NCBI GenBank assembly: GCA_009911715.1
Contig: CP047880.1
Location: 434,001 to 498,000, forward strand
Length of the DNA: 64,000 nucleotides
Direction of reading: 5' to 3'
From: Methanomassiliicoccaceae archaeon DOK
GTDB lineage: Archaea; Thermoplasmatota; Thermoplasmata; Methanomassiliicoccales; Methanomethylophilaceae
This document shows positions 1 through 36,051 of the stretch, in pieces (the first letter of the stretch is position 1; each line of letters begins with the position of its first letter). Under the pieces are notes generated by a model. The model saw only the letters and a program-made list of their open reading frames with translations. It searched no databases and was not told the origin of the DNA. The position numbers were made by a program, and so were the translations under genes.

Positions 1-258
1 GCGGATAGTCGACCTCGTGTCCCCCACGCAGGACGACCCGGAGTGACGGCGGTGCCGTCCCGGCATCCCCCGGCGCCCTCCGCGGCGCACCCTCCCGTCA
101 TCCCGCACCCTCACACAGTCACCCCTGTCCCTCGCGACGCCGAGGGAGCTCCGCGACCGAGGCGGAGCCAAACAGGCCGAGCGGTCGCGCCTGGCGCAGC
201 CCAGCGACCGCCGGCCGCCTTCCCGGGACGGCTCCGCCGTCCCACGATCAGAGATAAC

Positions 259-1749
259 ATGCAGATCGAAGACTACGACATCAGGCTCGAGGACAGACGC
301 CTCCGCGCATTCCAGCGCGACCTCGAGATGAAGGAGAGGCAGGGCCTCGCCGTCCAGGCAGCTCTGGCGGAGCACTCCGTCACATCCTATGTGAGGAACC
401 TGCCGGTGGAGGACTCCACGTATCCTGCCATAGAGTACCTTAGACTTCATCCGCAGGATGACGTCACCGGGACTCAGGAAGGTGTTCAGGAAGGCCTTTC
501 GGGAATACCCGTGCAGAAAGGACCCGAGCCCTACCGCCAGTACATATCCTGGTGCATGCCCGCCCATGACCTCACGCGTCCCGACAGGAAGGGCTGCGGC
601 TTCATCCGCTCCTCAGCCGGAGGCATCGTGTACTCCGCCTGTCCGGAGGATCCCGAGCATCACTGCAAGGGCAAGCGCAGGCACTGCTGGTCTCTTCGTT
701 GTCCCAAATGCATGAACGACACCGCACTCAAGCGCGGGGTCCAGATCGAGAAGCAGCTCCTCTCCTACAAGGTGCTCAGCGAGAAGAAGGGAATCGGCGT
801 AGGCGATATCGGCCATTGGGTCGTCTCCCCTCCCCAGGACCTCGTCAAGAGGCTCTGTCAGACCAAGCCGGAGTTCGATGACCTCTGCAAGCATATCGAT
901 GATTCCATGGTCGCGTTCGGTGCCACAGCAGGGGTCACCATATTCCACCCCTGGCGCCAGAAGGAGTCCGACTGGGAGTTCTCCCCGCACTTCCACATCC
1001 TCTGCTACGGACGCATAGACACCACCGAGTTCAGGAGACAGAACCCCGGATGGCTGATCAAGAAGGTCCACTCCAGGGAGAAGATCCGCAGCATCAGGCA
1101 CACCGCCGCCTATCTCACCACCCATATGGGTCTCGGCATGGCCGAGAAGGACCCCGACGACATCGACTGGGACCTCAAGGTCCTCGACATGCTCGTCCCC
1201 GGCCTCCTGTCCCCAGGTGCCGACTACACCGAGAAGGATTACAACGAGAAGGGAGAAGGCAAGGGAAGGATGCTCGGCGACCTGTCGGGAATCGACTGGG
1301 AGCAGTGGACAATGAAGTCGCTCTCCGTGGAGTTCAAGATCAGGTACTGGGGCGGTGCTTCCAAACGCAACATCCGCACTCTCGGGGTCTACCGCCAGTA
1401 CAAGATCCGCGTCTGCAGGCATTGCCACACCATACTCAGGACCTACGACGGCATCCACGACTGCGTCGGAACATACATCAGATACATCAGGGACGACCCC
1501 GTGGTCGTCTTCGCGGAGGACTTCGAGCTCGTGAATGCGGTCTTCCAGTCCTTCAAGTCCAGGCTCAGAGAAGAGCACCTGACCATCGTGGACTTCTCCA
1601 GGATGTGCCCTCTAGCCCTGTGCACGCTGGACCTCGGCCTCCCCATGGACGAAGACCTGGTAATGACAGGACCTTTCGAGGAGCCCGACGAGTACTTCCT
1701 CAGGAGGCAGCGCGAAGCCTTCGGAAGGGAAACGGAGGCGATAGCGTGA
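259..1749 (+). CDS. rep: Rolling-circle replication initiator (HUH Rep), plasmid type
   Basis: 496 residues from the ATG at 259; an upstream in-frame extension is proline/arginine-rich low-complexity sequence and is not taken as coding. The core carries an HUH metal-binding motif (H244-F-H246 inside PHFHILCYG) and a following helix with a candidate nicking tyrosine (Y285 in AAYLTTHMG), the arrangement of single-tyrosine rolling-circle Rep proteins. A cysteine/histidine cluster before the HUH motif (CPEDPEHHC, CWSLRCPKC) and another after it (CRHCH) are probably zinc sites. Rep proteins of this kind nick the double-strand origin of a plasmid and start replication. It stops one base before the convergent HepT gene. 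Together with the integrase at 24442 it suggests an integrated plasmid. The family call is by motif only; origin and copy status are unknown. Confidence 0.72.
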   Translation: MQIEDYDIRLEDRRLRAFQRDLEMKERQGLAVQAALAEHSVTSYVRNLPVEDSTYPAIEYLRLHPQDDVTGTQEGVQEGLSGIPVQKGPEPYRQYISWCMPAHDLTRPDRKGCGFIRSSAGGIVYSACPEDPEHHCKGKRRHCWSLRCPKCMNDTALKRGVQIEKQLLSYKVLSEKKGIGVGDIGHWVVSPPQDLVKRLCQTKPEFDDLCKHIDDSMVAFGATAGVTIFHPWRQKESDWEFSPHFHILCYGRIDTTEFRRQNPGWLIKKVHSREKIRSIRHTAAYLTTHMGLGMAEKDPDDIDWDLKVLDMLVPGLLSPGADYTEKDYNEKGEGKGRMLGDLSGIDWEQWTMKSLSVEFKIRYWGGASKRNIRTLGVYRQYKIRVCRHCHTILRTYDGIHDCVGTYIRYIRDDPVVVFAEDFELVNAVFQSFKSRLREEHLTIVDFSRMCPLALCTLDLGLPMDEDLVMTGPFEEPDEYFLRRQREAFGRETEAIA

Positions 1750-1750
1750 A

Positions 1751-2113
1751 TCAGTCGTCTTCCTGTTCGGATTCGAGATCCTGTTTGATCCTCAGGCATC
1801 TCTCCCTGAGCGCGGGGATGTCCTTCCGGATGGTGTTCCACTGTTTGACGAGGTCGTTGTTGTGGTACTGGTGTGCAGCACGGTCGCGCATCCCGGTGAT
1901 CTCGGACCATGGCACATCCTTGTACCTCTCCAGGAATTCAGAGGACAACCTCTTCACAGCCTCGCCGATCTGCAGGATGCCGAACGCTGTGCTCCACTGG
2001 TATTGCAGACTCTCCATGAAGTCCTCGATGTCGTCACCGTACAGATCCCTGGTGGCCAGGATCCCATCGCAGTACTCCAGGATGGCATCGATGTTCTCGA
2101 GGTCATGCTTCAT
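1751..2113 (-). CDS. hepT: HepT-like HEPN toxin (DUF86)
   Basis: 120 residues, all-helical DUF86/HepT family. It has the HEPN ribonuclease motif R76-x4-H81-x-Y83 (RDRAAHQY) near the C-terminal third. In characterised HepT/MntA pairs this protein is an RNase toxin, and the motif tyrosine is AMPylated by the partner to neutralise it. The start chosen is the ATG at 2113, which overlaps the end of mntA by 11 bases, the usual layout for this pair. The longer in-frame extension to 2218 lies inside mntA and is rejected. It is convergent with rep with one base between. Confident by motif and context. Confidence 0.88.
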   Translation of the reverse strand: MKHDLENIDAILEYCDGILATRDLYGDDIEDFMESLQYQWSTAFGILQIGEAVKRLSSEFLERYKDVPWSEITGMRDRAAHQYHNNDLVKQWNTIRKDIPALRERCLRIKQDLESEQEDD

Positions 2114-2408
2114 AGAGCAGCCTCCTGTCCCTGAGGACCTCTCTGCTGAAGTCGTCACGGAGGGACTCCTCGCATACGACGTCGATGTCCGTGCCGAGGG
2201 CATCCCTGAGATCTGCATAGAATCCGCCCACCTCGAAGAGGCCGTAGTCGTCCGGTGTCAGGATGCAGAAGTCGTAGTCGCTGCCCTCGGTGTTGTCGCC
2301 GCGGGCCCTGGAGCCGAAGAGGTACACGCGGATCATCCCATGGCGGGCCGCTACAGCTCCGACTATCTGACAGAGCTCCTCGAACGTGTACTCCTTCACC
2401 TCGTCCAT
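2103..2408 (-). CDS. mntA: MntA-like minimal nucleotidyltransferase antitoxin
   Basis: 101 residues of the minimal nucleotidyltransferase fold. The signature G32-S33-x10-D44-x-D46 (GSRARGDNTEGSDYD) is complete, and a third acidic position is present at D74/D76. In HepT/MntA systems this enzyme adds AMP units to the toxin tyrosine. The gene precedes and overlaps hepT. A TATA-like element on the minus strand at 2430-2438 sits 22 nt before the start codon, so the transcript is probably leaderless. Confidence 0.88.
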   Translation of the reverse strand: MDEVKEYTFEELCQIVGAVAARHGMIRVYLFGSRARGDNTEGSDYDFCILTPDDYGLFEVGGFYADLRDALGTDIDVVCEESLRDDFSREVLRDRRLLYEA

Positions 2409-3964: not shown

Positions 3965-3986
3965 AATGAAATTTCGATGTGGTTTC

Positions 3987-4997
3987 ATGCAGGTCAAGAG
4001 GGCTGTGAAGACTGTCAGCAAGACGGGTGATTCGCTGACAGTCGCCATCACCAAGGAGGCCAAGGCACTCGGTCTGGACAAGGGTGATTCGGTGACCATC
4101 ATGGTTGGGGATCTTTCTCCCGAAGAGATTCGTAATTTCGATCTCGCGATGTCGCTTTCCAATCGTAACGCATTCTACACCAATCAGTACTGGCTCAACT
4201 CTTCTGACCATTACATAGACGGTTCGAAAATTGAGGACATGAGCGACACACTCGATCCAGATGTCATGCTCGAGACGCAGGAGAGACTGTATGCGTTCAG
4301 GTGGTTCAAGGAGAGGGCCGAAAGGTTCATCCGCGAGCGTATCACGGGCCCCCACGCATTCTATTCCGATTCTCAGCGCTCATTCATAACGAAGTTCATG
4401 CCTGTGCTGGAGCCGGACGATCGTTCCAACGATTTCACCAAGACCCGTTATTACCTGGAGATCCTGGAGGACGCCCTCAAGGACTCCTACACTCTGGACT
4501 GTCCTCTCAATTCAGTCACCAGTATCAGCGCTTCTGTAGCCAGAGCTCTCAAGGACATCAGGGAGGTTGAGGGTTTGGATGACGGTGCCATCGACGAGAA
4601 GGTCCGTGAACTGAACAAGAAGTGGGAGGAGGAGAATACCAAGAAGCGGTATCCGGACACATGGTACTTCTCGATTTCAGTCACCTATGAGTTCAATGGA
4701 ACGGACTACGATCCCACAGGCTATCCCGAGTTCAAGCTCTATGAGGGACCTTATAAGAAGTATGTCGAAGCCATCGTAGATGAGTATGATGCCCATATGG
4801 CGGGTGAATATCAGGAGAGGTCGTCTATTGTGATCGGCCCCTTCGGTACGAAGGATGATGCCACCACCATCATGTCCTATCTGAAGATGGATGCCCTTCG
4901 CAACAAGACCCTGGGAACCATGGATTATCTGAAGAAGGTCAAACCGCTCGCATACGAGCTGATGGATTCTCTTGACAACAACGGTGATGTCATATGA
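3987..4997 (+). CDS. AbrB/SpoVT-type N-terminal domain protein with unknown C-terminal region
   Basis: 336 residues from the ATG at 3987. Residues about 1-45 (VKTVSKTGDSLTVAITKEAK, then a DKGDSVTIMVGD segment) look like a swapped-hairpin AbrB/MazE DNA-binding domain. The remaining ~290 residues are mixed alpha/beta and not recognised. AbrB domains usually occur in transcription factors and antitoxins; a protein this long is unusual for either. The 3' end overlaps the next gene (ATGA). It sits just outside the minus-strand defence operon and is convergent with it, so a role in the same island is possible but unproven. Confidence 0.55.
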   Translation: MQVKRAVKTVSKTGDSLTVAITKEAKALGLDKGDSVTIMVGDLSPEEIRNFDLAMSLSNRNAFYTNQYWLNSSDHYIDGSKIEDMSDTLDPDVMLETQERLYAFRWFKERAERFIRERITGPHAFYSDSQRSFITKFMPVLEPDDRSNDFTKTRYYLEILEDALKDSYTLDCPLNSVTSISASVARALKDIREVEGLDDGAIDEKVRELNKKWEEENTKKRYPDTWYFSISVTYEFNGTDYDPTGYPEFKLYEGPYKKYVEAIVDEYDAHMAGEYQERSSIVIGPFGTKDDATTIMSYLKMDALRNKTLGTMDYLKKVKPLAYELMDSLDNNGDVI

Positions 4998-5261: not shown

Positions 5262-6455
5262 TCATCTGCCGAGAGCCCTCATCGTGCTGCATTTGTTCTC
5301 GACGAGCTCCTTGTGTGACCTGTAACAATCCAGGCACGCGGGTTTCTCGGCGCTGACCTCACATTCCTTTCCGCATACGTAGCAATGCCCTTTCGGCTCG
5401 ACATATTTCATGTTGGAGTAGCGCTGCCATGAATCCATGCACCTGCCGCAGTACACGTAGTCGTGCGTCGAGGGGATCACACGCCCGCATCTGATGCAGT
5501 GGCATAATGCCGTTGTATCCACCGTTTTATTTTGATGTCTATCTTCTTCTGTCTGGGATTCGCTTTCGTTGATAATGGTGCGTTCCCTCAGGCATCCTTC
5601 ATCTGTCAAATCTATCAGATATTGTGCGACGGTCATCGAAGAGTTGATTACCAGCATGGCATCGCCTCTCGACAGTTTTACATGGACTTTAGAATGCCAG
5701 TGTGCATCTGTGTATTCGTTACGAATATGTGCGATGTTGCTGACGAGTGAAGTTAGTGCTTTGGTAACATTGGTTATGGGTTTGGGGATCTTAATCCGTT
5801 CATTAGACAAATATGTCTTGTTCACGTCCTCCATCATTGCCTGTATGTTGCCCTTATAGTCCTTTTCAATTCCATTGATTTTTAGGACATTGAGCAAGAG
5901 TCCCTCCAGCATGGTTCTACATTTGATTATTGCATCATCATAACGGCCATTGTCTATATCGTCACGGCATTTCCCGATGGTCTCGTCTATAGTGTCTAGA
6001 TTGAACCGTTTCTCGATTCCGATAATGCTCGGTTCATCCTCGAATCTTACATGAATGCCCTTCTCATTCACAGAGAATTCAACACCATCGTATTCCAGTA
6101 TAGTATTAAGTTCCTCGATGATGGCATTGACGACAAACTGTTTGCGCTCCTTTGGGGTTCCTGTGATGCCTATATCGTCGTATGCAGCTTGAGACATCAG
6201 GTATTTCATGAGGTCATCTATCCGGCCTAAATCCAAAGCTTCCTTTATTAGGGCCTCCATTATCATCCATCTGCTCGCGCCTTCCTCCACAGTATCTGTG
6301 GAACCAATCAGTTTGAACATGTTGCGAATTTCGTAGCCCTTCTGATAATACAATCCGACACGGATTCCGTATGATGATTCAACATCCGCATCACCGATTA
6401 GGATATTAATCACATCACGCCGTGTCAAGGATTCCTTTCCCATGTTCTTACCCAA
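5262..6455 (-). CDS. Abi_C (abortive infection C-terminus)/HEPN protein with two zinc ribbons
   Basis: 397 residues. Residues about 160-285 match the Abi_C type of helical domain: a conserved helix with CRTMLEGLL, then an A-H-I-R245-N-E-Y-T-D-A-H252 segment that reads as a HEPN R-x6-H ribonuclease motif. The C-terminus has two zinc-ribbon-like modules (CxxC pairs at about C318/C320/C323 with C336/C339, and C358/C361 with C374/C377). HEPN-Abi proteins typically act as RNases in phage-induced dormancy; here that is inference. It is the last gene of the minus-strand type III R-M operon, 24 nt after the nuclease gene, and is visibly less GC-rich than its neighbours. Confidence 0.72.
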   Translation of the reverse strand: MGKNMGKESLTRRDVINILIGDADVESSYGIRVGLYYQKGYEIRNMFKLIGSTDTVEEGASRWMIMEALIKEALDLGRIDDLMKYLMSQAAYDDIGITGTPKERKQFVVNAIIEELNTILEYDGVEFSVNEKGIHVRFEDEPSIIGIEKRFNLDTIDETIGKCRDDIDNGRYDDAIIKCRTMLEGLLLNVLKINGIEKDYKGNIQAMMEDVNKTYLSNERIKIPKPITNVTKALTSLVSNIAHIRNEYTDAHWHSKVHVKLSRGDAMLVINSSMTVAQYLIDLTDEGCLRERTIINESESQTEEDRHQNKTVDTTALCHCIRCGRVIPSTHDYVYCGRCMDSWQRYSNMKYVEPKGHCYVCGKECEVSAEKPACLDCYRSHKELVENKCSTMRALGR

Positions 6456-6479
6456 CCTATGTCACAGTTCGTAGGGTCT

Positions 6480-7916
6480 TCACCATTCGATGCATTCGGA
6501 CTCTTCGTATCCGATGACCTCGGTCTCAATCCTTCTCATCGTTTCTTTCGGGACTTCGGACATATCGAGGGTGTACACTATGTTCAGACGGGGGTTGAAG
6601 ATGCCGATGTTCCGCACCGTTTCGAAATGACTGTCCGTGCTGTGCTTCCCCATGATGTAGTACATGGCCAGCTGCAGGGTGTGCTCCTTGGTCGGGATGT
6701 TCTTCGAGACCTTGAAATCCCAGATTGTCGACTCGGTGAGGTAATCTCCATCGCCCGCTCCGACCACTTCCGTGTATGCTCCGGGGAACTTGGGTCCGGA
6801 TTCGGTGATCGGTCCGTAGACCTCGAAGAACCTCTTCGACCGTTCGATCATGATGCGGATGTTCTCACAGGTCTGATGGTCCACGAATGTCAGGAACGGG
6901 TCCGTCTTCGGTGCGCGTCTGGCCCTGTAGTAGGAATCGTACATGCATGTACGGCAGGCACACTCTATGGATTCGTCATCGAGCCCTCTGATCCCGCACA
7001 TGTGTTCCGCCACATCCTCGGCCTTTCCGCCTGCGAAACCTCCCATGACGGAGATGATGAATGCTTCGGAAAGGGATGACCCCATCACCCAACGGGTGAG
7101 GTAGTCAACTGCTAACCCTGCTATGGCAGGGGGCACGTTCTCCTCGCCCAGTGTTTTCCCATCATCGAATCTCGTCTCGTTCAGCAACCTGGGATTGATG
7201 AAACCTCCGGGCGGTTGATCCACTTCACTGATGCGCCTTGTGACACTGACCCCTCTCCTCTTAGTCGGCTTCGATTCGGTATCGACGGGTTGTTGCGGCG
7301 TTTCCGTTCTCACCGGTTCGGGCTTCGTGTCACGTTCCTTCTTGAGACGCTGGATCTCCGAATGGATCCTCCGTCTCTCATGGTTCTGCTTCTCCTTCTG
7401 GAATTTCTTCTCCAAATCTGCGATTTGCGTATTGTAAGAGCGGGTGCGCTTCTCCCAGGCTATGGCTTCGTGGAGAGGTTCATCACGGGAGAGGTTCCCA
7501 AGGCCTCTGACGATGTTCGCCCAGACCGCATCAAGGTCTAGACCTTCCAATTCCAAACTGTGATCGGCATTGGGTTTCCAATCGGTCTGGAACACAATGT
7601 CCTCGACCACTGCTATCTTCGAGACATCCCCATACGAGAGCACATAGACGGTCTTGTGTCCCAGTCTGTTCAGGAGCATCAGGTTCCCGTCATCGCAGTC
7701 CTGAACGTTCAGCTGCAGTTCCATGACGTAGATCGCGGAGACGTCCTTTCCCTTGTCGATGTTCACCGACTCCGGCGAGATGATCGACCTTATCGTGATG
7801 CTGTGGACCTGCTTGTCGAACCTCTCCCTCTCACGCCCTTTGATGTTCTTGCTGCTGAAGAACGCATCCTTTGGGATGGCCTTCCTCACATCCGTGGACG
7901 GCGGCAGGCCGAGCAT
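6480..7916 (-). CDS. DUF4391 domain fused to a PD-(D/E)XK nuclease
   Basis: 478 residues. Residues 1 to about 200 have the features of DUF4391 (MLGLPPSTDV start, LELEGLDLDAVW near 121-132, coiled coil at about 155-196), a family commonly found beside type III R-M genes. After a linker, residues about 260-450 form a RecB/Cas4-like nuclease: GDGDYL (388-393), D400-F-K402, then QLAMYY (415-420), which correspond to motifs II, III and QxxxY. Cysteines CACRTC at 319-324 could bind metal. It follows the SNF2 helicase gene by one base and precedes the Abi_C gene. Nucleolytic activity is inferred from intact motifs; the target is unknown. Confidence 0.7.
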   Translation of the reverse strand: MLGLPPSTDVRKAIPKDAFFSSKNIKGRERERFDKQVHSITIRSIISPESVNIDKGKDVSAIYVMELQLNVQDCDDGNLMLLNRLGHKTVYVLSYGDVSKIAVVEDIVFQTDWKPNADHSLELEGLDLDAVWANIVRGLGNLSRDEPLHEAIAWEKRTRSYNTQIADLEKKFQKEKQNHERRRIHSEIQRLKKERDTKPEPVRTETPQQPVDTESKPTKRRGVSVTRRISEVDQPPGGFINPRLLNETRFDDGKTLGEENVPPAIAGLAVDYLTRWVMGSSLSEAFIISVMGGFAGGKAEDVAEHMCGIRGLDDESIECACRTCMYDSYYRARRAPKTDPFLTFVDHQTCENIRIMIERSKRFFEVYGPITESGPKFPGAYTEVVGAGDGDYLTESTIWDFKVSKNIPTKEHTLQLAMYYIMGKHSTDSHFETVRNIGIFNPRLNIVYTLDMSEVPKETMRRIETEVIGYEESECIEW

Positions 7917-7917
7917 C

Positions 7918-10900
7918 TCACCTCACCACCAGGAAGCACACGAGTTCGAAATCGTCCATGCCGTTGGATTTCACGGTGGTGAAACTATCCTTGCCGTTCA
8001 GGAAGTCGTCCAGTTCCGATTGTTCCTTCTGATCCACGATGGAGTCGATCGATCTCGTCAGAAGCTTCGAGATCTCGGACATGTTGCGTCCGTCATCGGT
8101 CTCCTCGTTGAACGATCTGCATAGATCCGCGTATGGCTTGCTTTTCCCCTTGCAGGCATATCTCATGAGGTCGAGGAACCTCTTCGGATCCAGATGGTCG
8201 CAGACCACATCGCCTGCATTCGATATGTAGACCATGTAGAACGGATGCAGGCGGTTCTTCTTGTCGCGGTTGATGTTGTCCACGCGGTTCAACAGGACGA
8301 ACATGACCCCAGGTGGCATTTCCTCGGACGATGGGACGACGGCCTGGAGCCCGTAGGGGGTGCCGTCCAGCAGTCCCGCGGTACGGGTGTAGTCCAGAAG
8401 GTCTACTCTGAACTCGTTTAGCCCGAGATCCATTATCGAGACTCCGGATTGCATGTCCTCGATGTCGACGACCTCATCCTTCAGACGCTGGAGCTGGTTC
8501 TTCCTGTATTCCAGGTCACCCTTCTCATTGGTGTCCAGGACGTTGTCGTCCCCAGTGGATGTGAGGACGGACGCCTTCATACGGGACTCCACCCTCCCGC
8601 GGAGGTCGATGTACGTGTCCAGGTCCACGTCCGGCCAGAAGTTGACCAGCTGTATACGGTCGTTCCTGCTGCCGATACGGTCGATACGCCCGAATCTCTG
8701 GATGATACGGACGGGATTCCAGTGGATGTCGTAGTTGATACAGAAGTCGCAGTCCTGGAGGTTCTGACCCTCCGATATGCAGTCCGTTCCGATCAGGATG
8801 TCGAGTTCTTCCTTGGCATTCTTGTCCACCAGGTCCCTGCGCTTCGATATCGGGGAGAACCATGTCAGGGTGTCGTTGAAATCCCCCTTGATCTCCTTCA
8901 GGGTGTTCCTACCGTCCACCGTTCCCGTGATCTCGGCGGTGTTGAGTCCGTATCTCTCCTTGAACTCCTTGGATATGTTCTCGTAGAGGTAGTCGGCGGT
9001 GTCGCTGAAGGTCGTGAAGATCAGGACCTTCCTGTTACCCGGGTTTATGGGGTTGTCGATCTTGTCCAGGATGCATCTCTTGAGCGTGGCGAGCTTCTTG
9101 TCGTTCGTCGGTGTGATGCGGGCGACCGATTCCGACAGTTCTCTGAGGACAGCACGGTCGTTCTCCAGATAGTGCTTCCACTGGATGTAGTCCATGTCCT
9201 CCAGGCTGATCTTGATGTCGTGCTCGATCGCATAGACCTCATCGTCCTCTTCGAACTCCGACAGGTCCTCGCTCACCTTGACGGTCTTCTCACCGTTCTC
9301 GAACTTCTCTATGTTGGACAGTGTCTTCTCGATCCTGGCGAGGACCTTGTCCACGGTCTTCCGGAACGAGTAGATGGAACTCTCCAGACGTTTGAGGAGG
9401 TTGATGGCGGTGAGCCTCCTGATCCCCTGCTCGCGTCCGGAACGGTCGATGGTCGACCTGTCGATACCGTACTTGTACTGCTTGCTGGGGAGGATGAAAT
9501 CCGTCGGGACATACACCTCCAGGTTCAACCTCTGCAAGGAGGCGTTGATGCTCTCGAAGGTCACGCCCAGGTCATCATCCGTGATGCCCGGGTCCAGGTT
9601 GATCGGTTTCAGACGCTGCGGGAACTTCCCGACCTCGTCCATGCCGTAGTACTTCTCGATGTGCTTCCTGGAACGTGCGATGGTCACGCTGTCCAGGACC
9701 TGGAAGAAGTCGAAGTCGAGACAGTGCAGCAGATTTTCCGTGGTGCGTTCCTCGGGTTCAAGGGAGCTCCACCTGTTGAAGGCCTTCTGGGCATCCCTGA
9801 ATATCGCATCCAGCGGGCGGCTGACATCGAGGTTGTCCTGCATCAGGCTCGGCTCGCCTTCGTAGGCGATCATCAGCTGGTTGTAGAGGTCGTAGAACCT
9901 GTTGTTCACAGGCGTGGCAGACAGCATCAGCACCTTCGTCTGGGTGCCCGGCCTGATGACCTCATTGAGAAGGCGGCTGTAACGGTTGACGCTGGTCTCG
10001 TCATCGACATCCGTCCTCCCCCCGTTGCGGAAGTTATGCGACTCATCGATCACGACCAGGTCGAAGTTCTCCCAGTAGAACTGCTTCAGGTTGATGCCGT
10101 TGGAGTACCCGCTTCTTCTGGAGAGGTCCGTGTGGTACAGCACCTTGTACTGGAACTTGTCCTTGATCAGGGGGTTGTTCCTGTATTCAGAACGGTAGGT
10201 GTTCCAGTTCTCGGACAGCTTCTTTGGACATAGGACGAGGACGTTCTTGTTCCTCGACTCGTAGTACTTGATCACGCCCAGGGCGGTGTAGGTCTTTCCG
10301 AGTCCGACGCTGTCGGCCAGGATGCATCCGTTGAATGTCTCCAGTTTGTTGATGATCCCGAGCACCGCATCCTTCTGGAAGGAGTACAGGGAGTTCCAGA
10401 TCACCGAATCGCGGAACCTGATGCTCTCGTTGGGGAGGTTGTCTCCGGAGATGTCCTCCAGGAACTCCTTGAATATGTTGTACAGGGTGACGAAGTAGAT
10501 GAACCCCGGAGGATTCTCATCGTACGCTTCGGTGAGCTTGTCCACGATGTCCTCCTTCACATCCCTGAGAAGGTCGGGGTTGTTCCAGATCTGATCGAAC
10601 AGACGGAACATCGGCAGGGTCTCGTCATCGGCGAGTTTCGTGGTGTACATGCTGATGCTGTCGCCTTTCTCGCTGCCGATCCCGACGGTCGTGAACTCGC
10701 TGACCGGACGGTACGACGTCCTGGAATCGCCGGATTCGACGTTCAGCATCGAGTCCATGGGACGGTAGCTGACGTTCGACCTGAACTCGCATTTCCTGCG
10801 GATCCAGTCGGCGCATTCCCTGGCCAATGCCTTCTGGGTCAACCCGTTACGGAGCTTCACCTCGAACTCTGTTCCGTAGACGCTGCGCTCTCTGGACAGT

Positions 10901-11124
10901 CTCGGAATGTAGAACTCCTTCTTCTCACGGGGCGCCTTCTCCTCGAGGAATGTGGGCGAGGTGAAGATGAAGCGAAGCGATTCGACGCCCTTCAGCTCCC
11001 TTTTCAGCTCTTCGAAAGCGTAGATGGAGAAACATGCCGACGCGATCGAGACCTTGCTGCCCTTGGTGACCGTCTTCTTCAGGTCCTCGGCCAGCGTGTA
11101 GTTGATGTTGTCGATGTTCTCCAT
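7918..11124 (-). CDS. SNF2-family helicase with PLD-like N-terminal domain
   Basis: 1068 residues. Residues 1 to about 165 resemble the non-catalytic phospholipase-D-like module often attached to SNF2 helicases; I do not see an HKD motif. The helicase core has Walker A (DSVGLGKT, about 271-278), the Walker B box DESH (360-363), motif III LSATPVNN, and the C-terminal lobe ending in QRFGRIDRIG. The family remodels or translocates on double-stranded DNA using ATP. It sits between the type III Res gene (4-nt gap) and the DUF4391-nuclease gene (1-nt gap), so it is co-transcribed and presumably part of the same defence complex. Confidence 0.85.
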   Translation of the reverse strand: MENIDNINYTLAEDLKKTVTKGSKVSIASACFSIYAFEELKRELKGVESLRFIFTSPTFLEEKAPREKKEFYIPRLSRERSVYGTEFEVKLRNGLTQKALARECADWIRRKCEFRSNVSYRPMDSMLNVESGDSRTSYRPVSEFTTVGIGSEKGDSISMYTTKLADDETLPMFRLFDQIWNNPDLLRDVKEDIVDKLTEAYDENPPGFIYFVTLYNIFKEFLEDISGDNLPNESIRFRDSVIWNSLYSFQKDAVLGIINKLETFNGCILADSVGLGKTYTALGVIKYYESRNKNVLVLCPKKLSENWNTYRSEYRNNPLIKDKFQYKVLYHTDLSRRSGYSNGINLKQFYWENFDLVVIDESHNFRNGGRTDVDDETSVNRYSRLLNEVIRPGTQTKVLMLSATPVNNRFYDLYNQLMIAYEGEPSLMQDNLDVSRPLDAIFRDAQKAFNRWSSLEPEERTTENLLHCLDFDFFQVLDSVTIARSRKHIEKYYGMDEVGKFPQRLKPINLDPGITDDDLGVTFESINASLQRLNLEVYVPTDFILPSKQYKYGIDRSTIDRSGREQGIRRLTAINLLKRLESSIYSFRKTVDKVLARIEKTLSNIEKFENGEKTVKVSEDLSEFEEDDEVYAIEHDIKISLEDMDYIQWKHYLENDRAVLRELSESVARITPTNDKKLATLKRCILDKIDNPINPGNRKVLIFTTFSDTADYLYENISKEFKERYGLNTAEITGTVDGRNTLKEIKGDFNDTLTWFSPISKRRDLVDKNAKEELDILIGTDCISEGQNLQDCDFCINYDIHWNPVRIIQRFGRIDRIGSRNDRIQLVNFWPDVDLDTYIDLRGRVESRMKASVLTSTGDDNVLDTNEKGDLEYRKNQLQRLKDEVVDIEDMQSGVSIMDLGLNEFRVDLLDYTRTAGLLDGTPYGLQAVVPSSEEMPPGVMFVLLNRVDNINRDKKNRLHPFYMVYISNAGDVVCDHLDPKRFLDLMRYACKGKSKPYADLCRSFNEETDDGRNMSEISKLLTRSIDSIVDQKEQSELDDFLNGKDSFTTVKSNGMDDFELVCFLVVR

Positions 11125-11128
11125 CCGA

Positions 11129-14100
11129 TCATTCCCCTCTCACGAGATCCAAGAGGTTGGCGTAGCTGTTCACTGTCCCGAAGTCGACCTTGATGCCTGT
11201 TCCCTCGAACAGCTTCTTGGCGCACTTGATCTTGTTCTCCTCGATCTTTGACAGGTCCATGGATGACATGGAGCCCTTGGTCTCGGCCACGAAGAAGATG
11301 TGGCGGACTTTGTCCTTGTCGAAGGCGATCGCCCAATCAGGTGTGTACTCCCCCATCGGGGTGGGGATGTAGAACCCGCCCTTCCCGTCAGGCAGCTTGG
11401 AGTACACGATGACCTCCTCGGCTCCATCCAGATCCTCGGCGAACCTCCTCTCCACTTGGCTGTCAGTGAATATGTAGTCCTGGATGTTCTTCTTGGTCTC
11501 GTACGCCTTGTCGAAATCCCCTTCCGGACGGTTCATCGTGAAGATGCTGTTGTCGAACTTCCCTTCTGTCATATCGTACTCGATGTGATCCACGATGACT
11601 GTGGACTTCTCCTCGTTGATTAATCTGGAGACCTTCTCGATGAACTCCTCTGGGTTGACCTTGAACATGTCGAACTTCGAGTTCTCTATCTCCTTGAGGA
11701 TCGTCGCCACGGTCCTGCGGGTGAGTCCGGTCTTCGACGCCACCTTCCCTACGAGATCGTACTTCACCCCCACATAGGAGGATGCACCCACTTCGCCGCT
11801 GGATGTGGTGGCTTTGCTGAAACCATCCTTCTCAACCGCTTCCTCGTAGCTGATCTCGGATTTCTGGGAACCGGTGGTGACCGTGTACGAAATTCCAGAC
11901 ACGTTCAGCTTGGAGTTTATGCTGACGACGGATTTCCGGATCAGCTCCTGGCTGTCGAAGGAAACCTTGTAGTGATACATGTGGTTGATCTCGTTCCACA
12001 GCTCGATGAACTCCTTCCTCTGGAAGTTCTTGTTCAGACTGTTGGACTTGATCTTGGGCTTGCGTCCGTCCTCCGTTATGTCGCGCACCGTCTGAGGCTC
12101 TGCGACCCTCTTGAGGAACTGCCTGATTCCCGGAGCGAGTTTGGCGATCTCCTGCGGAAGCGGCTGGAGCTTGTTCGCATGGAGATCCTCCTTGAGCTTG
12201 TCCGTCGGCATGTCGTCGTAATCGATGTACCAGTTGCCTGAAAGGTACCTGTAGAGCACCTTGGCTTCCATGGTCTCGATGGTGATCTCGCCTTCCTCTG
12301 CGAGGATCTTCTTGCCCTTGAGGAACTCGGCGGTTATCGGCACCGCACGGTGACGGATGTCCAGGACGGTCTCCTCCTGCAGCCCCTTGACGAACGTCTC
12401 GTATTCCTCATCGGCGACGACAGTCAAGGAGTTCACATCGTGGAACAGTGGACCAAGCGCTTCGGAATCCTGTCTGTCCCCCTTCTGGTTCACGCAGATG
12501 CGCATACCGCGGCCGACCTCCTGCCTCCTGCGAGTGGTGCTGTCGGAGTGCTTGAGGGCGCATATCTGGAACACGTTGGGATTGTCCCATCCCTCGGACA
12601 GGGCGGAGTGAGAGAAGATGAAGCGGACGGGATTGCTCTGGCTGAGCAACAGCTCCTTGTTCTTCAGGATCAGGTCATAGGCGCTGACGTCCTGGGAACC
12701 CTCCTGTCCCCTCTTGACCTCGCTGTCGATGGCACGGCCCTTCTTGTCGATGCTGAAGTAACCTGAGTGGATCCTCGAGACGTCGGTGTTTGTGAGGTAC
12801 TCGATGTAGTCCGGGTCGTAGAACTTCCCGCGTTCGGCGATGATGGACCTGAACTCCTGTTCGAACATCTCCCCGTATTCGCCCAGCCTCTCGTTTCCGT
12901 CGTCATCGTACTGACGGTACTTGGCGACCTCGTCGATGAAGAACAGGGAGAGGACCTTGATACCCTTGGAGAACAGCTTGCTCTCCTGGTCCAAGTGCGA
13001 TAGGATGGTCTCCCTGATCTGGATGCGACGTTTCCCGGATTCGGTGATGTCGCCGACAGCCTCTCCCGCATAGAGGACAGTGCCATCGCTCAGGGTGACC
13101 GTGTTCGCGAGACCATCGATGTCCGTGATGAACAGGCCCTTGTAAGATTCGATGTGATTGGATGTCTCATACAGGTTGTCCTGTTGGCGGAAGACATGGG
13201 TCTCGTTGCGGATCCCGGCGGAATGGCTCACGAAGATCTCCATCCTCGCAGTGGGTGCTGTCTTCCCGGCATCGATCCCTTCCAGATAGATGTACCTCTC
13301 GGACCCCGACAGGTGGTTGATCCTCACGCCCTTCACGCGTATCTTCTTCACGAGTTTCTGGTTGTACGCATCGAGGGCATCAAGGGAATAGACCTGGTTG
13401 TGATGGGTCACATGCGTGGCGGAGAAGTTCATCGAGAACAGGGCGTTGAAGTGCTTGCGAAGAGCCTTCTGCGTCTTGCTGTCGTCCTTTCCGAGCTTCT
13501 GGGGCTCATCCAGGATGAGGACCGGCCTGTTGGCGGCGATGATGTCTATGGGACGTCTCGACTGGAACTCGTCCCTCACGGAATAGATGATCCTGCTCTG
13601 CTCGTTCTTCCCATCCTCCTTGAACGACGCCGCGAAGGCCTGGGAGTTGATGATCATCACGTTGATTCCGGAGCTCTGGGAAAACTCGTCTATCTTGTAG
13701 AGATCGGAAGAGCTGTAGATGAAAGCACGGAGCTTCTTCCCATACTGCTCCATGAAATGGGACTCGGTGGTCTGGATGCTCTTGTAGACCCCCTCGCGGA
13801 TGGCGATACTGGGGACCACGATGATGAACTTGTTCCATCCGTACCTCTTGTTGAGCTCGAACATCGTCTTGGTGTAGACGTACGTCTTACCTGTACCAGT
13901 CTCCATCTCGACGTCGAGTGTCACCGCTCCGAGCGGGTCGACGATCTCTTCCGATATGGGGATGCCGTTGTCCTTCTGGACGGTCTGGATGTTCTTCAGG
14001 ATCCGTTCCGGTGCGATCGTCAGATCGTTGTTGCGATAGGCGAGTCCGACCTCGGTCAGAGGGACACCAGATTCCTCGTCGAAGGTGGCCTGGGTGTCCT

Positions 14101-14221
14101 TCCTCGTACCCATGTCGTGTCTGTGCCGGATACCATCGCTGAACTCCTGGCCTTCGAACACACGGACTATGCTCTCGACAGCCTCTGTCTGATACGGGAG
14201 TGTCTTGAAGGTGAACTCCAT
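11129..14221 (-). CDS. res: Type III restriction endonuclease subunit Res
   Basis: 1030 residues, the normal size of EcoP1/P15-type Res. N-terminal SF2 helicase with Walker A METGTGKT (106-113), a DEPQ Walker B box (VLILDEPQK), and a motif VI-like RRRQEVGRGMR. The C-terminal endonuclease motif is intact: YTPDW followed by AETKG (PD...ExK arrangement, about residues 960-985). It uses ATP to sense paired unmodified sites and cuts DNA with the Mod subunit. The gene starts 9 nt after the mod stop. Nothing looks truncated. Confidence 0.93.
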   Translation of the reverse strand: MEFTFKTLPYQTEAVESIVRVFEGQEFSDGIRHRHDMGTRKDTQATFDEESGVPLTEVGLAYRNNDLTIAPERILKNIQTVQKDNGIPISEEIVDPLGAVTLDVEMETGTGKTYVYTKTMFELNKRYGWNKFIIVVPSIAIREGVYKSIQTTESHFMEQYGKKLRAFIYSSSDLYKIDEFSQSSGINVMIINSQAFAASFKEDGKNEQSRIIYSVRDEFQSRRPIDIIAANRPVLILDEPQKLGKDDSKTQKALRKHFNALFSMNFSATHVTHHNQVYSLDALDAYNQKLVKKIRVKGVRINHLSGSERYIYLEGIDAGKTAPTARMEIFVSHSAGIRNETHVFRQQDNLYETSNHIESYKGLFITDIDGLANTVTLSDGTVLYAGEAVGDITESGKRRIQIRETILSHLDQESKLFSKGIKVLSLFFIDEVAKYRQYDDDGNERLGEYGEMFEQEFRSIIAERGKFYDPDYIEYLTNTDVSRIHSGYFSIDKKGRAIDSEVKRGQEGSQDVSAYDLILKNKELLLSQSNPVRFIFSHSALSEGWDNPNVFQICALKHSDSTTRRRQEVGRGMRICVNQKGDRQDSEALGPLFHDVNSLTVVADEEYETFVKGLQEETVLDIRHRAVPITAEFLKGKKILAEEGEITIETMEAKVLYRYLSGNWYIDYDDMPTDKLKEDLHANKLQPLPQEIAKLAPGIRQFLKRVAEPQTVRDITEDGRKPKIKSNSLNKNFQRKEFIELWNEINHMYHYKVSFDSQELIRKSVVSINSKLNVSGISYTVTTGSQKSEISYEEAVEKDGFSKATTSSGEVGASSYVGVKYDLVGKVASKTGLTRRTVATILKEIENSKFDMFKVNPEEFIEKVSRLINEEKSTVIVDHIEYDMTEGKFDNSIFTMNRPEGDFDKAYETKKNIQDYIFTDSQVERRFAEDLDGAEEVIVYSKLPDGKGGFYIPTPMGEYTPDWAIAFDKDKVRHIFFVAETKGSMSSMDLSKIEENKIKCAKKLFEGTGIKVDFGTVNSYANLLDLVRGE

Positions 14222-14230
14222 GTTCCCACC

Positions 14231-16243
14231 TCAGAGCACCTTGGTCTGCGTGTTGGGACTGAACGTCTTGAAGATCTCACCGAAGTTTATCGCGACCGAA
14301 TCGGACGACATGGAGCTGTCCCTGAACACCGCGTACCTGGGCTGACGTTTGGCAATCTCCGTGACAAGGCCATCATCCACATCCGAGTCGAAGCATGCGA
14401 TGAGGTAGTCTCCATCGACTGAGAACACCGTCTTGCCCGCAACCTTCTCTTCCTGGATGTCGGCGGACAGTTCGATACCGAGCTCTAGCATAACCTGAAC
14501 CAGAAGGTCCTGCCCGCTGCGGTCGGATTTGATGTTCTCCGCAGCGTAATCAAGAATCTCCTTCTTGGTGGCCGTCGGATCGTAGAACACATCGTTCATG
14601 TTAGACGAGTCGACCTTGAACACGCGGAATCCGACATCCAGTTCATTGTCATCAAGAGTCTGTTGTCCTGTCAGTTGCTTACCCGCACGCCTTATGCGTT
14701 CCTTTCCGATCTCGCAAATGTTGTGGGGTCTGTCTCCGAGAAGTTCTATGGCATTGTTGTAGATTGTCTTTGAAGCTTCGGAAGTGCCTTTAACATTCTC
14801 CAGGGGCTCGGGAATCTGGACCAATATGAACGTACGGTTTCCTCCATCGGCTTTGTTCTGAAGGAATACCGAATGGGCTGTCGTCGCCGATCCAGAGAAG
14901 AAATCCATGATTATGGAATCCTTGTCGGTGCAGAATTGTATCAGGGACTGGATGATCTCCTCGTCCTTCGGATTCTGGAACACGTCCTTCCCCATCAGAT
15001 CTCTAAGTCTTTTCGTCGCAGCGCGACCATCCTTGTAGAACACACTATAGGGTGCAGACAATTCGTGTTCTTTGAGGTAGCTTTTAACACAGGGGACGGA
15101 TTTTTCATCATCGCCAAATACAATTCTGTCGTCTGCGATTAATTCTTTAAGGCGTTTTTCTGAATACAACCATCCTCTTGATGGTATTTTGACAGGTTTG
15201 CCTGTTATTGGGTGTAAGACTTCGTATTTGGGGCCGCCTCCGCCTGGCCATGAGATATTGTCAGCAAAGTAAATGCCTCTCTTGTCTACGCTGTTGTAAT
15301 GTTTATGATTCTTTGCAGGATCATTGGCACCTAGCGATTTATACCACCTTTTCAGCTCTTTCTCTACAGCAGCATCATCTGAGCCGTACTTCTTTCTCAG
15401 AGCATCATACTCGGCGTAGATGTCGTCTAGACCCTGTTTCCTCTCACGCCATTTGACAGCGTTTTCCTTCAGGTAATCCATGGAACGGACATAACACAGA
15501 ATGTACTCGTGAGACACCGATACAAGTTTCGAATCGTTCTTACGACCCGCAGCCCATGTGAATGTCGTAACGAAATTGCGCTCTCCGAAGATCTCATCGC
15601 ATACACGTTTCAGATTGGCCTGCTCATTGTCATCTATGCTGATGAATATCGCACCATCATCTGTCAAGAAATCCTTCGCCAGAATCAGGCGAGGGTAGAT
15701 CATGTTCAGCCAGTCGGTATGATATTTCCCATTGCTCCCGGAGTTGATGACCATCCGACGTCCGGAATCATCGTAATCCCCGCTGATCTGGCTGTATTCC
15801 TCCTCGGTCGATTCGAACTTGTCATCATAGAGGAAATCATTCCCTGTGTTGTAGGGGGGATCGATGTAGATCATTTTCACCTTCCCAAGATACGTTTCCC
15901 TTAAGAGTTTGAGAGCATCCAGGTTGTCTCCCTCGATGTAGATGTTTCTGGTGTCGGCAAACTTAGAGTGCTCATCGAGGCAGGGTCTGAGCGTCAGTGT
16001 CGTCGGACTGTTAGCTAGACGCTGAGCCTCCGATTTTCCCGGCCACGAGATGATATACCTCTCCTTTCCTTCCGGGATGACAGCATCCGAGAGCTGACGC
16101 TTGAGGCTCTCGAAGTCAACAGCCAGTCTGGTCTTCCCACCATCCGTTTTCGTCTCGGTTACGCATGAGGGGAAGATCTCTGCGATTTTCTGGATGTTGA
16201 TTTCTGTGATGTCCTTTGTCTGCATCTCGAGCCTGTCTGCCAT
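14231..16243 (-). CDS. mod: Type III DNA methyltransferase subunit Mod
   Basis: 670 residues from the ATG at 16243; the track can extend to a TTG at 16270 but the ATG has a TATA-like region upstream. Beta-class N6-adenine methylase order: motif IV D128-P-P-Y131 (IDPPYNTGND) comes first and the SAM-binding motif I (DFFSGSATTAH) near the C-terminal side. The middle contains the target-recognition region (about 190-430), less GC-rich than the flanks, as expected for exchangeable specificity. It modifies the recognition site and is needed for Res cleavage. First gene of the five-gene defence operon. Confidence 0.93.
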   Translation of the reverse strand: MADRLEMQTKDITEINIQKIAEIFPSCVTETKTDGGKTRLAVDFESLKRQLSDAVIPEGKERYIISWPGKSEAQRLANSPTTLTLRPCLDEHSKFADTRNIYIEGDNLDALKLLRETYLGKVKMIYIDPPYNTGNDFLYDDKFESTEEEYSQISGDYDDSGRRMVINSGSNGKYHTDWLNMIYPRLILAKDFLTDDGAIFISIDDNEQANLKRVCDEIFGERNFVTTFTWAAGRKNDSKLVSVSHEYILCYVRSMDYLKENAVKWRERKQGLDDIYAEYDALRKKYGSDDAAVEKELKRWYKSLGANDPAKNHKHYNSVDKRGIYFADNISWPGGGGPKYEVLHPITGKPVKIPSRGWLYSEKRLKELIADDRIVFGDDEKSVPCVKSYLKEHELSAPYSVFYKDGRAATKRLRDLMGKDVFQNPKDEEIIQSLIQFCTDKDSIIMDFFSGSATTAHSVFLQNKADGGNRTFILVQIPEPLENVKGTSEASKTIYNNAIELLGDRPHNICEIGKERIRRAGKQLTGQQTLDDNELDVGFRVFKVDSSNMNDVFYDPTATKKEILDYAAENIKSDRSGQDLLVQVMLELGIELSADIQEEKVAGKTVFSVDGDYLIACFDSDVDDGLVTEIAKRQPRYAVFRDSSMSSDSVAINFGEIFKTFSPNTQTKVL

Positions 16244-16309
16244 GGGGCCAGTATAACAATGATAGAACAATAATATTGGCGTTTGTTCAGATTATGATTT
16301 TGTAAGTCA

Positions 16310-16330
16310 GGGGGCGTTTGCCCCCTTTTT
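16310..16330 (+). terminator. Strong hairpin with T5 tail between mod and the 16332 gene
   Basis: GGGGGC (16310-16315), GTTT loop, GCCCCC (16320-16325), then TTTTT on the plus strand. The genes on both sides run on the minus strand, where the hairpin is followed by no T-run, so as a terminator it would act on antisense transcription; it may equally mark the 3' end of the 16332 gene transcript. Confidence 0.45.
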
Positions 16331-16331
16331 A

Positions 16332-17021
16332 TCAAAGATTCACGCCCAGTCTCCTGAGCTCCGTCTCCGCCTGCACCCTGCCTGGATACTTGTCGAGCAT
16401 CTCCTCGTATCTTTCGGCGTCGTCCTCCCTTGTGGGTCCGAATCCCAGGTTCACGTGGCAGATCTGGGAGTACAGGGCGTAGTCCAGAGCCTCTTCCGGA
16501 ACGTCCTCCGAGTCCAGCGCCGGGTTCATGACGATCGTCCTCATCAGGACGCTGGACCTTCCGAACTTCCGGCTCCTGTCCCCGACGCTGCTCCATCTGA
16601 TGACGAGGTCTGGGTCGTATTCGACCAGCCCTCTCTCGGCGAGCCTCCTGTAGCAGTCCAGCAGGTCGACACTCTCCCCGCGTGCGGTCTCGCTGATGCC
16701 CCTGAACCTCTTCAGGTACATCCCCTGGTTCTCCTCCAGGAACTCCTTCGAGTTGAGGTAGTCGCAGACCTCCTCGGAGTAGGCGGTCCTGTCCTCCCCT
16801 CTGATCCTTGCGAAGACGGTCTCCGCCAGGCTCTGGATCACGTTCTCCGGTGCATTTCTGAGGTAGTCGGAGACCTCGAAGCTGATCCACTTGTAGGACC
16901 TGGTCCACTTCAGCTTGAAGTCCCTGAAGGCGGAGAACTCCGCCTGTATCTCGTCGAATCCGTTTCTGATGCCAGCGTTGCGCATGGCCCTGTTCAGCAT
17001 CTCGCTGTCGCAGTTCTCCAT
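16332..17021 (-). CDS. SprT-like protein with degenerate HExxH motif (paralog 1)
   Basis: 229 residues. The layout matches archaeal SprT/M48-like metallopeptidase-fold proteins: a ...YKWISFEVSDYL... strand pair near 43-54, GRSSVLMRTIVMN at 154-166, and a helix VPEEALDYALYSQICHVNLGF where the zinc-binding HExxH should be. Here it reads S185-Q-I-C-H189, so the first histidine and the catalytic glutamate are gone. A close paralog lies at 35365-36051 with the same loss (SQLAH). It is presumably not a protease; function unknown. An AGGAG-like Shine-Dalgarno precedes the ATG at 17021. Confidence 0.6.
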   Translation of the reverse strand: MENCDSEMLNRAMRNAGIRNGFDEIQAEFSAFRDFKLKWTRSYKWISFEVSDYLRNAPENVIQSLAETVFARIRGEDRTAYSEEVCDYLNSKEFLEENQGMYLKRFRGISETARGESVDLLDCYRRLAERGLVEYDPDLVIRWSSVGDRSRKFGRSSVLMRTIVMNPALDSEDVPEEALDYALYSQICHVNLGFGPTREDDAERYEEMLDKYPGRVQAETELRRLGVNL

Positions 17022-35157: not shown

Positions 35158-35364
35158 GGATTCGGAACCGTGTCGCTGGCTTAAGTCACTCTCCACCACG
35201 TGAACGGCGTCCTGGGTCGGAGCCCACGTGGAAAACACGTGCAACCGGCGTCCGAAGGTCATTTCAAGGCGTGATCCGGGAATCAACGTGACCGCACGGT
35301 ACCTCCTTTATCTCCAGAACGTCAAGTAGTGCTCTCCGCGGCGCATGCCGCAGGAGAAACAACG

Positions 35365-36051
35365 ATGAACAATCAGACTCTGACGGCCATCTTCACAGTG
35401 GTCGGCACAAGGAACGGATACGATCGCGTGCAGGCGGAGTTCTCGCCGTTCCGCGATTTCAAGGTCAAGTGGTCCCGCTCTTACAAGTGGATAGAGTTCG
35501 AGGTGAGCGACTACCTCTGCGACGCCCCCGAGGACGTCATCGAGTCCCTGGCGGTCACGATCTTCCACAGGATCAGGGACGATACCCACGACAACCTGAT
35601 GAGGTACGGCGATGCGGTCTGTGAATGGATAACCTCGGACGATTTCGTAAGGTCGAAGCAGCCCGTGTTCGTCCGCAGGTTCAGGGGGATAAGCCTGAGC
35701 ACGATGGGCAACCACAGGGACCTCGCCGAGTCCTACCAGAGGCTCGTGGACATGGGGCTCGTGGAGAGGGACCCCGACATCTACCTGGGATGGGCCGCCG
35801 GCGGCAGCAGCAGGGCCGTGGGCCGCGCGAGCATACTGATGAAGGTCGTGGCGATGTCGCAGCTGCTCGACTGCGACGATGTCCCGGACGAGGTGATGGA
35901 TTACTGCCTCTATTCGCAGCTCGCCCATGTCGGCATGGGGTTCAACAGGAACGGGGAGAGCCGCGGGTCCCAGTACGACGCCCTCCTGTCCAGGTTCCCA
36001 GACCGTGCGGAGATGGACAGCGCGCTGAGGAGGTTCAACATGCACATATGA
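35365..36051 (+). CDS. SprT-like protein with degenerate HExxH motif (paralog 2)
   Basis: 228 residues from the ATG at 35365, with CAGGAG at 35351-35356. It aligns end to end with the 16332-17021 product: the YKWIEFEVSDYL segment (40-51), GRASILMKVVAMS, and a helix VPDEVMDYCLYSQLAHVGMGF in which the metallopeptidase HExxH has become S184-Q-L-A-H188. Both copies have lost the catalytic residues the same way, so the loss predates the duplication. Function unknown; not a typical protease. Confidence 0.6.
   Translation: MNNQTLTAIFTVVGTRNGYDRVQAEFSPFRDFKVKWSRSYKWIEFEVSDYLCDAPEDVIESLAVTIFHRIRDDTHDNLMRYGDAVCEWITSDDFVRSKQPVFVRRFRGISLSTMGNHRDLAESYQRLVDMGLVERDPDIYLGWAAGGSSRAVGRASILMKVVAMSQLLDCDDVPDEVMDYCLYSQLAHVGMGFNRNGESRGSQYDALLSRFPDRAEMDSALRRFNMHI

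Follow-up and report, generated by a model that had tools for sequence, protein, structure and literature searches.

The window, a stretch of 64,000 nucleotides (nt) from Methanomassiliicoccaceae archaeon DOK (contig CP047880.1, positions 434,001 to 498,000), carries a type III restriction-modification (R-M) operon with a helper pair, a SNF2-family translocase and a DUF4391 protein, that accompanies type III R-M in many bacteria beside varying extra effectors. The operon consists of five adjoining minus-strand genes at 5262-16243 in the open reading frame (ORF) list: mod, res, SNF2, a DUF4391-nuclease fusion, and AbiJ/HEPN. The type III R-M system with mod and res is already known, whereas the nuclease fused to DUF4391 and the permuted gene order are special to the window. 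We read the operon as type III R-M plus a conserved accessory module, DUF4391 and SNF2 with a dead phospholipase D (PLD) fold, plus two effectors, and we give this reading a probability of roughly 50%. Support comes from comparative evidence, namely the order SNF2-DUF4391-mod-res in 76 of 103 loci, Res in all 11 Clostridia genomes that have SNF2, and a Res that falls inside a SNF2-associated clade. It also comes from the proteins, i.e., the confident two-domain model of the fusion, the fold matches of its nuclease, the PLD fold without HKD, and a related Res fusion in the same genus.

As the original prediction had it, the five genes form a unit on a single strand, with gaps of 9, 4, 1, and 24 nt in the order mod, res, SNF2, fusion, AbiJ; the last gap is 36 nt if AbiJ begins at its earliest in-frame ATG, at 6443, in place of the TTG start. 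Proteins were assigned to families with Pfam, PADLOC, and NCBIfam. The features are as follows.

14231..16243, minus strand: Mod, beta-class type III DNA methyltransferase, 670 amino acids (aa), DPPY at residue 128
11129..14221, minus strand: Res, type III restriction helicase-nuclease, 1030 aa, GTGKT at 109, DEPQ at 238, PD...ETK at 961-982
7918..11124, minus strand: SNF2-family translocase, 1068 aa, predicted PLD fold without HKD at residues 1-200, Walker A GLGKT at 274, DESH at 360
7317..7916, minus strand: DUF4391 domain, residues 1-200 of the fused gene (Pfam match at residues 2-194, 1.9e-24; pLDDT mostly >90)
6480..7259, minus strand: PDC-S61 RecB/Cas4-like PD-(D/E)XK domain, residues about 220-478 of the fused gene, GDGD at 388-391, DFK at 400-402
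5262..6455, minus strand: AbiJ-family HEPN protein, 397 aa, RNEYTDAH (R-x6-H) at 245, four CxxC pairs of zinc-ribbon type at 320-377

The four core genes recur together well beyond this archaeon. We compared 103 loci, made up of the best 80 of 447 species-genome SNF2 relatives, 5 plasmid-match loci, and 18 viral-contig loci. The complete order SNF2-DUF4391-mod-res on one strand is found in 76 of them, and 26 of the 27 incomplete loci have a contig end within 4.5 kb of SNF2. A viral contig (L109) is the sole incomplete locus with room (10 kb); it has mod, and res is not recognizable. These counts bear out the prediction of a recurring neighborhood in which SNF2 and DUF4391 accompany type III R-M, and indeed show it to be near-obligate. 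Because the four genes recur across phyla in one order, the five-gene grouping is not chance. At the DNA level (blastn), the SNF2 gene is also matched in 88 of 5,426 Escherichia coli genomes. Since none of the 103 loci has mod or res 5' of SNF2 within the stretches examined, no other locus in the set shares the mod-res-SNF2-DUF4391 order of the window. In G208 (locus L122), the other genome of this family found with the system, the genes stand in the usual order and without cargo. Within the window's class, SNF2 occurs in just 2 of 300 genomes, the window's own included, which suggests horizontal gain.

A sample of 196 Clostridia genomes was searched separately for SNF2, Res (E-value threshold 1e-50), and DUF4391, which avoids a start from SNF2 only. 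SNF2 was found in 11 genomes, Res in 22, and DUF4391 in 13. Every SNF2 genome has Res (11/11; Fisher p = 2e-12), and 10 of the 11 have DUF4391 (p = 2e-13). Ten of the 13 DUF4391 genes lie directly 3' of SNF2, and an eleventh, in a locus cut by the contig end (G334), is followed by mod-res. Since 11 of the 22 Res-bearing genomes lack SNF2, while no SNF2 genome lacks Res, SNF2-DUF4391 appears to depend on type III R-M and not the reverse. The original prediction had tied its case to whether the SNF2, DUF4391, and Abi_C genes occur independently of mod-res. In these Clostridia genomes SNF2 does not, and DUF4391 mostly adjoins SNF2; Abi_C does occur independently, as described below for AbiJ. The window's Res sequence falls within a clade of 34 rows (support, 99; quick tree method, with a long branch for the window) that is nearly all SNF2-associated, despite the permuted gene order.

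The R-M genes themselves have the features of type III systems: mod and res adjoin (9 nt), both match at the family level, Mod has DPPY, and Res has Walker A and PD-(D/E)XK motifs. Mod matches N6_N4_Mtase and the PADLOC type III methyltransferase model (1.2e-278 is the corresponding value for Res against the type III restriction endonuclease model, and 1.4e-212 that for Mod), while Res matches ResIII and RE_endonuc. The Mod start is placed at the ATG at 16243, and a longer form from a TTG at 16270 is possible. Neither of two search patterns for motif I matched Mod; by eye, the translation contains DFFSGSATT, which resembles motif I. Type III enzymes methylate one strand and require two inverted unmodified sites for cleavage. 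The operon resembles EcoP1I and EcoP15I in its Mod and Res families, their adjacent order, and their catalytic motifs, but those are two-subunit systems, whereas this unit has three extra genes and its SNF2-DUF4391 pair falls outside that description.

The SNF2 protein matches Helicase_C, SNF2-rel_dom, and the PADLOC model C3a139, "HKD+Snf2" (1.8e-119), although this last match begins at residue 174, past most of the PLD region. The alignment of relatives has 88 rows, one of which (L001) copies the window's own gene, leaving 87 different loci; ATPase motifs are present in all 88. We modeled residues 1-250 (mean pLDDT 74, weak at 62-83). In this model, residues 1-200 resemble SauUSI (Z 13.3 over 151 residues; root-mean-square deviation [rmsd] 3.7; Foldseek 6.9e-05), with further matches to NgoAVII (Z 11.5), BfiI (Z 11.2), and other PLD proteins. 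H-x-K is absent from the window protein and from the conserved columns of the alignment; it was found in 8 of the 88 rows, at scattered positions, and the complete H-x-K-x4-D in 2. The earlier description of this protein as PLD-like thus stands for the fold but not for the catalytic residues. An active PLD nuclease is rejected on the missing HKD motif, and because that motif is not conserved among the relatives, SNF2 is probably a motor that has kept a PLD fold and lost PLD chemistry. SauUSI-type enzymes share the layout of an N-terminal PLD fold followed by a helicase; unlike them, the window SNF2, judging from its residues, would work, if at all, without a nuclease of its own.

Around this conserved core, the gene content changes from locus to locus. 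The SNF2-DUF4391 gap is <100 nt in 63 of the 76 complete loci. Inserts of ≥300 nt separate DUF4391 from mod in 55 of the 76 and mod from res in 41; 40 loci have both inserts and 19 have neither. Of the cargo, 129 frames reach about 100 aa, and the 123 that lie on the operon strand form 79 clusters, 60 of which are singletons. They match 56 Pfam families, led by RhuM (9), the YhcG/DUF1016 nuclease (6), Abi_C (5), AAA_21 (4), TIR_2 (4), and AbiGi (4), with ThsB (3), AAA_13, Fic, HEPN, SIR2, and Schlafen (2 each), and the ThsA macro domain (1) among the rarer ones. The four-gene core therefore has slots, mainly DUF4391-mod and mod-res, that hold changing defense and toxin genes. In E. coli, annotation shows no operon-strand cargo for pLAO18, CFT073, or NCTC11023, whereas strain H5 carries two genes in the DUF4391-mod slot.

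Such variability also fits the main rival explanation, an ordinary type III R-M system with hitch-hikers, in which the work is done by Mod-Res alone, while SNF2-DUF4391 and the cargo are separate defense genes that only linkage within a defense island keeps together. The absence of SNF2 from half of the Res-bearing Clostridia genomes points the same way. So does Eco86II, which restricts in vitro without its accessory helicase being detected, according to the excerpted text of Murray et al. 2021 (PMC8259958), although that helicase probably belongs to another family. In that text, a helicase-like ATPase gene lies 5' of mod in type III N4-methylcytosine systems (BspHIV and Eco86II), is found near mod-res in >500 genomes, and is of unknown function and dispensable for methylation. 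It is comparable to the window SNF2 as a conserved superfamily 2 ATPase without a nuclease motif beside mod-res, but it differs in being placed directly 5' of mod (with about 140 bp of noncoding DNA in BspHIV), with no DUF mentioned in the excerpt (PMC8259958). Because of this description, and because the Eco86II host, NCTC86, does not appear among the 88 E. coli genomes that match this SNF2 gene (a comparison at the DNA level only), we consider the two helicases probably different. Hitch-hiking is harder to square with SNF2 never occurring without Res and with an order fixed in 76 of 76 complete loci and in the E. coli loci; simple linkage would not keep a four-gene order across phyla. On balance, we regard it as unlikely, while taking it seriously.

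The cargo suggests a second alternative, that SNF2-DUF4391 is a separate defense sensor which shares Mod for self-recognition and uses its own cargo to kill or stall the cell, with Res as a parallel arm. Many of the cargo families are of the toxin or abortive-infection kind (Abi_C, TIR, ThsB, Fic, HEPN, SIR2, AAA_13), and the busiest slot, occupied in 55 of 76 loci, is directly 3' of DUF4391. However, both main slots are empty of cargo in 19 of the 76 loci, and 41 have cargo between mod and res, so the cargo is not tied to DUF4391, and we find this explanation quite improbable.

We return to the accessory-module reading with the fused gene, which in the window equips DUF4391 with a nuclease. 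It occupies 6480-7916 (minus strand) as a single open frame of 478 aa, DUF4391 followed by PDC-S61. The PADLOC PDC-S61 model matches residues 223-471 (4.2e-94). In the predicted structure (mean pLDDT 92) both domains are confident, and the low-confidence segment between them, residues 205-219, is probably a flexible linker. An assembly artifact is ruled out by the single open frame and by the confident modeling of both domains. A PDB sequence search with the fusion gave no match (best E, 0.72). By predicted structure, the nuclease part matches MGME1 (Z 10.7 over 154 residues; rmsd 3.6), AdnA, the Cas4-like ACE1, AddA, RecB, and Dna2 (Z down to about 8); the fold matches of the whole fusion fall on this part and on a long helix. 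The GDGD and DxK motifs are kept in 8 of 9 aligned nuclease rows and lost in the remaining one (L099). No such fusion is seen in any of the 103 other DUF4391 frames, nor is there another in the 300 genomes of the window's class, and the 13 Clostridia DUF4391 matches, in open frames of 103-281 aa, are likewise unfused. The prediction that the fused nuclease is unusual is thereby borne out. In the literature searched, which was available partly in excerpt, DUF4391 appears only as a mention in a table line of a single paper, and PDC-S61 likewise appears in a single paper.

Elsewhere, PDC-S61 is encoded by itself, as a gene of about 250 aa on Bacillota and Bifidobacterium plasmids, in contrast to its fusion to DUF4391 here. 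The family was found in 6 of 292 genomes of the phylum, in 1 of the 196 Clostridia genomes, and in none of 15 searched genomes with SNF2 loci. Among viral contigs, the fused protein as query gave nothing and the nuclease-domain alignment gave 6 loci; a single record among 50,697 from phages has the domain. In the same genus, a second genome (G244) encodes a 1203-aa type III-like Res (locus L121, 4337-7948) with PDC-S61 at its C terminus, flanked by Mod and a DUF1016/YhcG nuclease gene. Given the DUF4391 fusion in the window and this Res fusion, the PDC-S61 nuclease has joined type III machinery at least two times in one genus. The standalone plasmid genes might suggest a self-sufficient effector in need of control, with DUF4391 restraining a toxin that is released upon infection and not serving as a docking subunit for DNA degradation, but this is very unlikely given the Res fusion, with which DNA targeting fits better than toxin control.

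Two further observations concern this nuclease family. In three genomes of the window's family (G131, G235, and G085; loci L099, L100, and L101), a PDC-S61-like protein without the catalytic DxK lies between genes that by eye are trm1- and purA-like; it is possibly a domesticated non-nuclease. AbrB/SpoVT-like genes lie near PDC-S61 genes at three loci: 3966-4997 (plus strand) of the window, a weak match; L096 571-1377, by eye; and L089 8850-9140, annotated.

The second effector of the proposed operon is AbiJ, which matches Abi_C (8.7e-11) and PADLOC AbiJ (7.9e-40) and carries the HEPN motif R-x4-6-H; its C-terminal part gave no further match in the loci searched. An AbiJ gene is present in 5 of the 103 SNF2-relative loci, each time directly 3' of mod, whereas in the window it is 3' of DUF4391, and it also occurs alone on plasmids. 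AbiJ is thus ordinary, optional cargo. The terminal HEPN gene is not, as had been proposed, what makes this version unusual; its distinctive features are the DUF4391-nuclease fusion and a permuted order that begins with mod-res.

PrrC in type I R-M (PMC3710099, in excerpt) offers an analogy that makes a layered defense of DNA cleavage, a second nuclease, and an RNA fallback plausible. Mod would methylate an asymmetric site, and Mod and Res would cut unmodified invading DNA. SNF2 may be recruited to such DNA and translocate along it, with DUF4391 as a putative docking partner that here bears an invader-resecting nuclease, such that motor and fused nuclease would act in trans in the manner of AddAB or RecBCD. 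AbiJ may be kept inactive by the complex and, like PrrC in type I systems, cut RNA once the earlier layers have failed. Several findings weigh against this scheme. Control of AbiJ by the R-M complex is a guess, because in the other five loci AbiJ is placed elsewhere, after mod. No DUF4391 partner lies near the PDC-S61 genes that stand alone. Two of the 13 Clostridia DUF4391 genes (L185 in G404, 261 aa; L186 in G498, 276 aa) stand alone, with no SNF2, mod, or res nearby, and represent independent use of DUF4391. Finally, mod-res cargo is also present at two loci where this SNF2 was not found (L183 and L184), so such slots are not exclusive to loci with the four-gene core.

Second lines of defense beside R-M have precedents. 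For HEPN proteins in R-M operons, Anantharaman et al. 2013 proposed multi-pronged defense and listed AbiJ (PMC3710099). The PrrC/RloC- and HEPN-linked R-M systems treated there have a HEPN RNase as the presumed second line, as in the window, which adds a type III system with SNF2-DUF4391 and a RecB-like nuclease, a combination not seen in the excerpted parts of that article. Excerpts on BREX-related systems describe back-up effectors and HKD-helicase effectors (PMC12839542). DISARM is ruled out for the window, as the DrmD score is 154.5 bits against a cut-off of 610 and the other four genes match no DrmA or DrmB model. No description of SNF2-DUF4391-mod-res was found in the literature searched, which was partly in excerpt and left most subscription papers outside the search.

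Type III R-M is regarded as having two subunits. If SNF2 and DUF4391 do depend on Mod-Res and come with exchange slots for toxins and nucleases, type III loci would form an immune platform of modular design, comparable with the type I and BREX loci that contain back-up effectors. It is tempting to go further and see SNF2 (with its dead PLD fold) and DUF4391 as the core of a widespread, previously undescribed plug-in platform on type III R-M. Mod-Res would flag foreign DNA, motor and adaptor would pass the signal or the DNA to swappable effectors in fixed slots, and the archaeal fusion would show DUF4391 as a docking subunit that re-arms the motor with a RecB-like nuclease. We offer this wider proposal tentatively, as a possibility that we do not expect to hold in full. 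The role of SNF2-DUF4391 is directly testable, because cargo-bearing and cargo-free versions exist naturally, including in E. coli; the Leuconostoc kimchii plasmid LkipL4701 (L006) is an example of a four-gene system free of cargo.

The operon has clear ends. A convergent gene terminates 1 nt past AbiJ, and at the other end 88 nt with a strong hairpin (z = -2.75) separate mod from the upstream gene on the same strand.

16309..16326, minus strand: 7-bp G+C-rich hairpin between mod and the gene upstream

This hairpin is likely the 3' end of the upstream gene's transcript. PHROGs gave no informative name for the genes flanking the operon. Elsewhere in the window, genes at 16332-17021 (minus) and 35329-36051 (plus) are paralogs of no known family, with a further relative in another genome (G141, locus L124, 7010-7693). 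A 568-aa protein encoded at 43-1749 (plus) resembles, by eye, a rolling-circle replication protein, with no Pfam or PHROG match. A HepT-like HEPN gene (PF01934, 3e-17) at 1751-2408 (minus) overlaps a small gene that by eye is MNT nucleotidyltransferase-like (GSRARGD...DYD); the two probably form a HepT-MntA toxin-antitoxin pair close to the operon.

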